Virus record (IMG/VR): IMGVR_UViG_3300030106_002721
Location: 1-28,776 of that record
Source: a virus
Length of the DNA: 28,776 nt
Reading direction: 5' to 3' (one strand)
The translations under genes were made by a program, and so were the position numbers. The notes beneath the pieces are model-generated. The model was not told the origin of the DNA. It did no database searches and saw nothing but the letters and a program-made list of their open reading frames with translations. This document shows, piece by piece, positions 1,317 through 21,450 of the stretch (position 1 is its first letter; every line of letters begins with the position of its first letter).

Positions 1317-1390
1317 TGGACTCGTGGGCGAGATTCGAACTCGCATGATCGTAGTTGCAGTACGATGCATAACCTTTCTGCCACCACGAG
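1317..1390 (-). tRNA. tRNA-Cys (anticodon GCA), CCA encoded
   Basis: Cloverleaf read on the minus strand: acceptor CTCGTGG/CCACGAG (7 of 7 pairs), 3-bp D stem with a GG-containing loop, anticodon stem TCGTA/TACGA with loop CTGCAAC (anticodon GCA), 4-nt variable loop, T stem GCGAG/CTCGC with loop TTCGAAT. The discriminator is U, the known identity base for cysteinyl-tRNA synthetase, and CCA is encoded at 1317-1319. All stems pair and the identity base is kept, so it is likely functional. It would decode UGC and UGU. Flanked by copies of the island repeat. Confidence 0.95.
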
Positions 1391-19408: not shown

Positions 19409-20933
19409 TTATTATATCCTCCATAGTTTGGCCTTGAGCCATGTCAAATAGAATACCATATTGATCTTCTATTGTCTTGTTTAAATATTCATTAACATTT
19501 GTATCCACAATTGTGGCTTGTGTGTCAAAGAATGTTTTAGTATTACCTAGTATTTGCATAACAATCAATGTTTTCATTTGAGCTGCATCATCATATCTTG
19601 CTTTATCGTCAATTTTTTTGACAATTTTAGTTGCAGCTTTTTCTTTTGCACTCGGCTCTTTTACAGGTTTTTCGGGTTCTTCAGTTTCTTCCTGTTGTAC
19701 TTCTTCTTGTTCGGTACTATCTTCTGGCTCCACAGGGGACTCCTCAGTAGTTTCGCTATCGGGTTCGTTTGTTTCTTTTTCTGTTGGTTGTTCATCTACT
19801 TCTTTTACTTCTGGTTCGGGAGCCGTGGTCTCTGGTTCTGGTATCTCTTCTACAGAGGCGACTTCCATTTCTATCTCCGCCTCTACTGTTTCTACGTTAA
19901 CAGGCATCTCCATTTCTACCTCAACAGTAGGCATTTCCATAGGTGCAGAAGGTGTAAACTCTGTATCAAAATTCATTTCTAAGTCTATTTCCATCTCTAC
20001 TGTTTCAATCGTTACTTCCTCTGTTTCAGGCTCTATCGGTGCAAAATCTACCATACCATCATCAATGCTTATATCATTAAATTCAAATACTTCTTCAACA
20101 AACTCAATCTCTATAGGATCAAAAATATTTAGATAATATATTTCTTCAAGTGTTGTAATTTGTTGTGTTATGATTGTACTAATCACATTGTAAAACACAT
20201 TAACAGTCACGTCATCAAACAAAGGGCCGATTGCAAGATTAATGTCTCTACCACCTACTTCAACTGTTATTCTATTAAGTGAGCCACTGAAATCAAAAGC
20301 TCCAGTGTAAGATTGATAACCAGATGCTATACCAGATTCAGATAAGATATCAGTGCCTTGAAAGACTGTGTTAGATCCGTCACGACCTGTAATGTGCATG
20401 TAAATTCTATCTTGAGCATCACGTTTTTCTACTTCTATTGAGTATCTGACTTGACCACCTTTATCTATTTCTAAATCAGATATATCAATATTATTAATTA
20501 TAAAAGTTGTGCCCATTCCAGATACACCCATAGTAGAGGTATTGTTACCTGAGCCAGTAATCTGTGCACATCTATCTGATCCTAATTCACCACAAGTATT
20601 ACCAGTTGGCATGGAGGCAGGCCCTTGACCACCCCAATCTATGTTCATATTACCGTCATCACTAGAACCCACGTATCCGTTAGAACTATCTAATATATCA
20701 CCTGAGTCTTCGTTAGTAACAGTAGTAGTGGTAGTGGTTGTTGTCGTGGTAGTAGTAGTTATTATCTCTGTACCTTTGTCCTCTTCAGTTACAACGACAC
20801 TTTCTTCTTCAGTAATTGTTACACCCGGGATACATAGACCCTCTACATCGGGTAAACAAGTGTTAGCTTTAGAATAAAAGGAGACCAGTAGTAATAAGGA
20901 ACAAAGTCTTATAAAGCGCAATATGTCCTGCAT
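19395..20933 (-). CDS. Large exported acidic protein with poly-Thr tract
   Basis: 512 residues. Signal peptide (RFIRLCSLLLLVSFYSKA, cleavage near 23), thirteen threonines in a row (59-71), a globular middle (about 95-260, with MGTTFIINNIDIS and GYQSYTGAFDFSGSLNR), then a long low-complexity stretch of Glu, Pro, Thr and Val (about 290-430) and a helical C-terminus. AAGGAG lies 6 nt before the ATG. The N-terminus overlaps the previous gene by 65 nt in another frame. Likely envelope- or virion-associated; comparable proteins occur in Pelagibacter phages (recalled). Function unknown. Confidence 0.78.
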   Translation of the reverse strand: MQDILRFIRLCSLLLLVSFYSKANTCLPDVEGLCIPGVTITEEESVVVTEEDKGTEIITTTTTTTTTTTTTVTNEDSGDILDSSNGYVGSSDDGNMNIDWGGQGPASMPTGNTCGELGSDRCAQITGSGNNTSTMGVSGMGTTFIINNIDISDLEIDKGGQVRYSIEVEKRDAQDRIYMHITGRDGSNTVFQGTDILSESGIASGYQSYTGAFDFSGSLNRITVEVGGRDINLAIGPLFDDVTVNVFYNVISTIITQQITTLEEIYYLNIFDPIEIEFVEEVFEFNDISIDDGMVDFAPIEPETEEVTIETVEMEIDLEMNFDTEFTPSAPMEMPTVEVEMEMPVNVETVEAEIEMEVASVEEIPEPETTAPEPEVKEVDEQPTEKETNEPDSETTEESPVEPEDSTEQEEVQQEETEEPEKPVKEPSAKEKAATKIVKKIDDKARYDDAAQMKTLIVMQILGNTKTFFDTQATIVDTNVNEYLNKTIEDQYGILFDMAQGQTMEDIINAQY

Positions 20934-21402
20934 CGCTTACTCCTTCTTTTACAGGTTTTGCAGCCTGAACATAATCAGTTTTATATTTACTACCGTCTGG
21001 AATTTGATCGGGATTGTCCTTCCAATATTGAGCAGCTTCCGCCCCGATAAGGCCTTGTACAGGGCACGGGGTCCCTGCATCGGTCATTGCAGACCAGACT
21101 CGTGGGTCTTGACACAAAATTGACACAGCTGCAACTTTCATACCATAAGCATACATAGACCTACTTAATTTTAATTTTTGACACAGCTCATCGTCAATGA
21201 CTATACCACTCGCAAGTCCTACAATATTATTTTGTACACTAGCACCAACACCTACCTTACAGATATCGCTGTTCGAGTTGATTATGGAAGGTGCATTGGC
21301 CGTAGGCGGGGTCGAGTTGGTCACAACCGTGCTAGACACGGTATTCGTCTCTCCCCAGGCCTTACCTGCAAATAACAAAAATAATATTAGAATGTATTTC
21401 AT
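20869..21402 (-). CDS. Exported protein with C-terminal membrane segment (177 aa)
   Basis: 177 residues: signal peptide (MKYILILFLLFAGKAWG), Thr/Asn-rich linker, a conserved-looking core GASVQNNIVGLASGIVID and SMYAYGMKVAAVSILCQDP (about 52-100), four cysteines suited to periplasmic disulfides, and a C-terminal membrane helix (YKTLFLITTGLLLF). No ribosome site precedes its ATG, which directly abuts the stop of the cysteine-rich micropeptide (TAGATG), so it is translated by coupling. Core resembles conserved unknowns of marine podoviruses (recalled). Confidence 0.78.
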   Translation of the reverse strand: MKYILILFLLFAGKAWGETNTVSSTVVTNSTPPTANAPSIINSNSDICKVGVGASVQNNIVGLASGIVIDDELCQKLKLSRSMYAYGMKVAAVSILCQDPRVWSAMTDAGTPCPVQGLIGAEAAQYWKDNPDQIPDGSKYKTDYVQAAKPVKEGVSDAGHIALYKTLFLITTGLLLF

Positions 21403-21450
21403 CTATCTGCATATACATTCGCCATTACAATGTTCACAACAAGTACACAT
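21403..21450 (-). CDS. Cysteine-rich micropeptide (15 aa, six Cys)
   Basis: Sixteen codons: MCTCCEHCNGECICR. Six of 15 residues are cysteine, with CxCC, CxxC-like and CxC spacing and one His, suited to binding a soft metal. The ribosome site is near perfect (TAGGAGG, 5 nt spacer). Its stop abuts the ATG of the exported 177-aa protein, which has no ribosome site of its own, so this peptide could be a leader that loads ribosomes onto that gene, a metal or cysteine sensor, or a product in its own right. No family is recognised. Confidence 0.65.
   Translation of the reverse strand: MCTCCEHCNGECICR

Follow-up and report, generated by a model that had tools for sequence, protein, structure and literature searches.

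Metallothioneins bind several d10 metal ions through thiolates and have few or no aromatic residues. Those described, for example the bacterial SmtA type, share with the phage peptides reported here a high cysteine content, CxC and CxxC spacing, tandem duplication of cysteine units and the expectation of no large metal-free fold, but they are several times longer, and the 12-residue phage forms keep one aromatic residue. Phytochelatins, the (gamma-Glu-Cys)n-Gly peptides of plants, algae and fungi, resemble the phage peptides in very small size, cytosolic location, multiple thiols and alternation of Glu and Cys; unlike the phage peptides, they are made by an enzyme from glutathione rather than on the ribosome and contain gamma linkages, and we know of no phage gene for them. 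The Zn(II) affinities of short poly-Cys phytochelatins range from micro- to picomolar (PMC11191002). The CPxCG-related small zinc-finger proteins of haloarchaea are, like the phage peptides, small stand-alone Cys4 proteins (PMC2253796, PMC6562870); however, they are full one-domain zinc fingers, are longer and belong to archaeal hosts, and whereas they are defined by two CPxC(G) knuckles, the peptide studied here contains CxxC and CxC and lacks CPxCG. One CPxC, resembling the CPxC half, occurs only in a separate phage peptide type, CPICEFD..CDC. Finally, mycobacterial polycysteine leader ORFs are reported to be leaderless, cysteine-responsive operon attenuators (Canestrari et al. 2020, cited in PMC13236596). 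They resemble our ORF in being short, Cys-rich and directly upstream of a gene, whereas our ORF has a strong Shine-Dalgarno site, a mid-operon position, variable neighbours and conserved non-cysteine residues.

The six-cysteine micro-ORF and its neighbours

The window, by which we mean the whole 28,776-base virus record analysed here, carries a micro-ORF encoding MCTCCEHCNGECICR between an endolysin gene and the gene for a 177-aa protein (Table 1). On the minus strand, the junction reads AGGAGG-ATATC-ATG TGT ACT TGT TGT GAA CAT TGT AAT GGC GAA TGT ATA TGC AGA TAG-ATG AAA TAC, with the TAG of the micro-ORF directly abutting the ATG of the 177-aa ORF. This confirmed the first-pass annotation, which had described six cysteines in 15 residues, a strong ribosome site, a stop abutting the next ATG and the lack of a Shine-Dalgarno site for the 177-aa ORF itself. 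The peptide consists of the 12-mer core of the family described below plus a CTC insert and contains no Phe, Tyr or Trp. Cysteine makes up 40% of its residues versus 0.57% (28 of 4,951 residues) in the 12 large phage ORFs counted. As a null model, we generated 600 first-order Markov versions of the window and counted ORFs of 9–30 aa with at least four Cys and at least 25% Cys. These averaged 0.17 per version, and across all 600 none had an AGGAG/GGAGG site and none held six Cys in 15 aa or fewer; in the window itself, the micro-ORF is the sole ORF of such a Cys-rich kind with a ribosome site. We regard the micro-ORF as very probably a real, selected peptide gene that is presumably translated.

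Table 1. Positions of the micro-ORF, its ribosome site, the flanking genes and the tRNA gene in the window
Feature	Position	Strand	Remarks
Microprotein gene MCTCCEHCNGECICR, 15 aa, six Cys	21450-21403	(-)	Stop TAG 21405-21403; conserved family and synonymous codon variation
Shine-Dalgarno AGGAGG	21461-21456	(-)	5 nt before the micro-ORF ATG; overlaps the endolysin TAG stop
Endolysin, T4-lysozyme type, 145 aa (upstream gene)	21897-21460	(-)	Pfam PF00959, E 1.5e-9; PHROG endolysin / tail lysozyme
177-aa protein (downstream gene); signal-like N-terminus, C-terminal hydrophobic segment	21402-20869	(-)	phrog_20531, unknown function
tRNA-Cys(GCA)	1317-1390	(-)	ARAGORN

A SAR11-type host is likely for this phage, because its DNA polymerase is closest to those of phage 023Pt_psg01 (56% identity) and Pelagibacter phage HTVC023P (54%) and relatives of the 177-aa protein occur mostly in Pelagibacter phages. 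The 177-aa family has four invariant Cys (48, 74, 97 and 113); the structure model of the protein, with a mean pLDDT of 54, was too poor for use. Across the window protein (20869-21402) and its homologues, the first ~14, signal-like residues vary freely and the remainder is strongly conserved, as if signal segments had been exchanged between members.

Relatives of the junction were fetched through the neighbouring genes and not through the peptide. Every contig in which the 177-aa gene lies within ~85 nt after the endolysin contained an unbroken Cys ORF preceded by a ribosome site of the same kind and encoding MCTCCEHCNGECICR, MCTCEHCNGECICR, MCEYCNGECICK, MCEYCNGECGQGC, MCECCDGGCGR, MCECCGGGCGR or MCECCGGGCGFGC, and GGAGG was retained in all relatives examined. 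The tiny ORF that had been anticipated upstream of 177-aa homologues in related phages was therefore found there intact, and the configuration named beforehand as contrary evidence, in which the ORF is broken and the 177-aa gene has the ribosome site instead, was absent from this junction in the relatives examined. Other endolysin junctions differ: in two contigs (L055, L094) the Cys ORF follows the endolysin and a gene other than the 177-aa gene comes next, in one (L146) the endolysin is joined to a TM/coiled-coil (D0-type) gene without a Cys ORF, and in three (L028, L051, L090) unrelated genes, with no Cys ORF, come after endolysins 93–96% identical to that of the window. From these differences, the Cys ORF is a unit that is gained and lost.

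Two near-identical phages (L083:3153-3200 and L085:4448-4492) differ locally by one in-frame Cys codon (six versus five Cys), with the core CEHCNGECIC unchanged. In another clade (L117, L149, L150, L119 and L123), a different Cys peptide of 17–25 aa, of the CPICEFDLEDCDC / VCPICEFDLEDCDCFTY type, lies near the endolysin, on its downstream side.

A family of cysteine peptides in phage genomes

Judged by sequence comparison, MCTCCEHCNGECICR belongs to a large unannotated family of Cys peptides of 11–28 residues (microproteins of 11–18 aa and fused forms of up to 28 aa), whose genes lie at many different gene junctions in uncultured marine phages and which have the main form M-C-[ED]-[YF]-C-[NG]-G-E-C-[IV]-C-[RK]-stop. 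The search pattern fixed only the M, four Cys, one Gly and the stop and left Glu8 free; it matched at least 120 times in viral contigs and 53 times in 257 Gb of bacterial and archaeal genomes. Among the matches listed, MC..C.GEC.C[RK]-stop was present in 88 of 96 distinct viral contexts versus 0 of the 53 cellular matches, leaving no family member in the bacterial and archaeal genomes searched with this pattern, and because of this difference the family appears to be phage-specific. A scan of 357 fetched viral loci gave 161 short Cys-rich ORFs versus 11 in reversed/complemented controls, a measure of specificity rather than of genome-wide frequency, as many of these loci were ascertained by the peptide itself. 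In total, the family comprises 132 ORFs at 122 deduplicated loci. The same scan yielded further types, namely an 18-aa type (MCECCEDYDCICKGVNHV), fused 28-mers with up to nine Cys, MCDCKTDQDCICRLK and MCECCDGQCLGR, and CxxC and CxC spacing recurs in several of the peptide types. At several loci the 18-aa type and the 12-mer overlap, the ribosome site of the 12-mer lying within the 18-aa type, and some loci contain overlapping tandem pairs or fused repeats.

Among the matches listed, the 12-mer occurs in 52 distinct DNA versions, which specify 19 peptides. Throughout these 52 versions, Glu8 is always Glu, through both GAA and GAG; position 10 holds Ile, Val or Leu, for which six codons occur; Arg or Lys closes the peptide, with seven codons between them; and Gly7 is encoded by all four Gly codons and Cys by both TGT and TGC. 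The residues kept amid synonymous codon change are thus the Cys, the Gly-Glu pair, Ile/Val and the terminal Arg/Lys, and position 4 of most 12-mers is aromatic (Y or F). An RNA fold or ribosome loading alone would not yield such codon drift with retention of residues. These DNA versions bore out the earlier expectation of Cys positions conserved at the level of the protein, and the family combines a ribosome site or coupled start with synonymous drift and residue conservation, as a protein-coding microgene does.

The family ORFs lie in changing surroundings. Downstream, we found six recurrent gene families and singletons: D0, a TM/coiled-coil protein (phrog_20984; n=35), D1, the 177-aa family (n=30), D2, a tail completion/Neck1 protein (n=24), D3 (n=10), D4 (n=7) and D5 (n=3), so that most copies do not adjoin the 177-aa gene. 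Upstream, about a dozen families recur, among them a phrog_9114-like protein (n=41), U1 (n=24), the endolysin (n=20) and U3 (n=9). Most junctions have a strong ribosome site or coupled start together with stop-start overlap, and at the family loci no metal-related gene stands consistently next to the ORF.

Searches with blastn (two ORF forms) and tblastn (the fused 28-mer) found no annotated homologue in 50,697 phage records, with weak sensitivity for sequences of 36–48 nt, and a direct scan over long stretches of four genomes from related phages brought up no family ORF. Hits from the PDB sequence search were confined to venom peptides, small and rich in disulfides, that matched by chance (best E 0.12). 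The peptide strings had no match in the literature searched, the small phage gene families of Fremin et al. being outside this comparison, and none of that literature joins metallothionein with phage auxiliary metabolic genes. In Pelagibacter phage HTVC025P, an unannotated 48-aa ORF beginning MFDNWFKSWEDMYSYKTFKQ with a strong ribosome site lies in a 400-nt annotation gap (L244:2155-2301).

The proposed metal-thiolate peptide and its rivals

The best explanation, which we judge to be about evenly balanced, is that the ORF specifies a free, ribosomally made, phytochelatin- or metallothionein-like metal-thiolate microprotein, an accessory gene product of pelagiphage-like viruses; metal binding by the peptide thiols as such we consider marginally probable. 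An accessory phage microgene would give rise to a free 15-residue peptide whose thiols would form a metal-thiolate site, in which a single Zn(II) or Cu(I), or possibly an Fe-S cluster, would be bound by the core CxxCxGECxC, where four of 10 residues are Cys, and the extra CTC of the window copy and the tandem or fused copies elsewhere would add capacity. Such a peptide might buffer metal or redox state in late infection or, in an alternative use, deliver metal to, or withhold it from, a late phage or host protein. An all-disulfide peptide is disfavoured because some members have odd numbers of Cys (five and nine).

The metallothionein-like product suggested by the first-pass annotation is the best reading, with the same even balance; the fused 28-mer matched no family, and hence no known metallothionein family, in Pfam or NCBIfam. 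Metallothioneins are recognized by a Cys share of ~15–35% or more with CxC/CxxC, and the family members have 33–40% Cys, with CxxC and CxC in most of them; because its sequence matches no described family and its metal binding is only predicted, the peptide cannot be filed as a metallothionein. Counting further against the proposal, the typical 12-mer with its aromatic position 4 is unusual for classical metallothioneins, a peptide of 12–15 aa may be short-lived in the cell, and the sequence pattern would look much alike if the peptide served in redox chemistry, docking or partner binding.

Cysteine modules also occur on other phage proteins. In cultured pelagiphages, a small amphipathic protein, often encoded just upstream of a D0-type gene, has interchangeable C-terminal tails consisting of either lysines (HTVC034P, HTVC202P) or a Cys module with metallothionein-like spacing. 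The Cys tail is CKCKDKGKCQCK in HTVC021P gp54 (L420:1313-1435), CKCKGKCKCK in HTVC121P gp52 (L430:401-520) and the nine-Cys CKDCKCDCHC..CNCEGC in HTVC106P gp36 (L427:401-598). Six uncultured-phage proteins of 93–304 aa and unknown function (L396, L398, L399, L404, L405, L409) begin with MCECC[GN]GDC[KR]L (MCECCGGDCKLC); the longer Cys-N-terminal protein tested had no match in Pfam, PHROGs or NCBIfam. Stand-alone, tandem, fused, C-terminal and N-terminal use of one kind of Cys unit is what would be expected of a portable metal-thiolate site, and the forms may or may not all be homologous.

As short phage proteins often do, the peptide might instead act on one specific protein of the host or phage, docking through a small knuckle formed by the Cys residues, metal-bound or not, and altering its target rather than buffering metal. 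The conservation of the non-Cys residues Gly7, Glu8, Ile/Val10 and Arg/Lys12 and the presence of similar Cys modules on other protein bodies are consistent with such binding, but a chemical role would account better than a single fixed surface for the wide variation in type, length and spacing and for the tandem repetition, and we consider binding of this kind unlikely. Less probable still is a role in thiol/disulfide redox chemistry together with oxidoreductases of the phage or host or with late exported proteins: although the CxxC and CxC motifs and the four invariant Cys of the 177-aa family would suit it, the peptide has no signal peptide and would therefore be cytosolic, several members have odd Cys numbers, and most copies are away from the 177-aa gene.

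Returning to the metal-thiolate proposal, we tentatively suggest that marine, probably SAR11-infecting phages may carry a mobile class of tetrathiolate-peptide genes of 11–28 residues, among the smallest natural metallothionein-like proteins, which would be missed by gene callers, precisely inserted between late genes and used to manage host metal or redox state in infection. If this is true, an abundant group of ocean viruses would encode metal-binding peptides of just 11–15 residues, under the length cut of standard gene callers, and phage infection would be linked to the trace-metal or sulfur economy of SAR11-type hosts. The peptides are short enough for synthesis, and the case would show that micro-ORFs can be functional and be gained or lost at stop-start junctions.

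Leader and coupling readings of the junction

A Cys-responsive leader, in which ribosome pausing at the Cys codons tunes translation of the next gene as in the mycobacterial polycysteine leader ORFs, had been put forward on the strength of features that the locus does have: six Cys codons, a stop abutting the next ATG, a next gene without its own ribosome site and a tRNA-Cys on the same contig. A leader or attenuator, whether cysteine- or metal-responsive, is nevertheless unlikely, and we place its probability very low, because the neighbour changes, no conserved RNA structure was found and no terminator follows. Instead of a fixed link to one regulated gene, the peptide precedes at least five other recurrent families besides the 177-aa gene, in mid-operon positions. 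Neither a ribosome-position-dependent RNA structure nor a terminator was seen: folding of the window region is no stronger than that of shuffled versions (z 0.5), the consensus fold of ten relatives reaches just -2.5 kcal/mol, and a scan between the micro-ORF and the 177-aa gene found no terminator-like site. The conservation of non-Cys residues amid synonymous change and the similar Cys modules inside longer proteins also argue against it, and the proposed partnership with tRNA-Cys did not hold up, as no tRNA genes were present in 40 other loci fetched as family or pattern matches (partial contigs). The leader or attenuator of the 177-aa gene was rejected as a candidate on its changing neighbours and on the RNA folding and terminator scans.

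Translational coupling, also suggested by the first-pass annotation, is not special to the peptide, because the 177-aa gene commonly abuts the stops of other upstream genes too. Where the Cys ORF is absent, the 177-aa gene usually begins at or a few bases from the stop of the gene before it, with no ribosome site at 23 of 40 starts of this kind; stop-start overlap here reflects the general packing of operons. A role independent of the peptide, in which the short ORF does no more than bring ribosomes to the following start codon, would suit the ribosome sites and overlaps seen at most junctions, but is scarcely credible and, on the protein-level conservation, is already largely refuted, since it would not keep amino acids while codons drift, and the U1/D2 junctions of cultured relatives are coupled without a micro-ORF.

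In these cultured relatives (HTVC111P, HTVC112P and HTVC026P; L425, L417 and L418, near 1501), U1 and D2 join directly at AGATAATG. At the U1/tail-completion junction of another phage locus (L251:5200-5320; cf. L247:1860-1980), the micro-ORF lies between two copies of this 8-bp direct repeat. The insert is a clean 36-nt unit with the stop-start overlap recreated on both sides, an arrangement that suggests precise insertion between genes.
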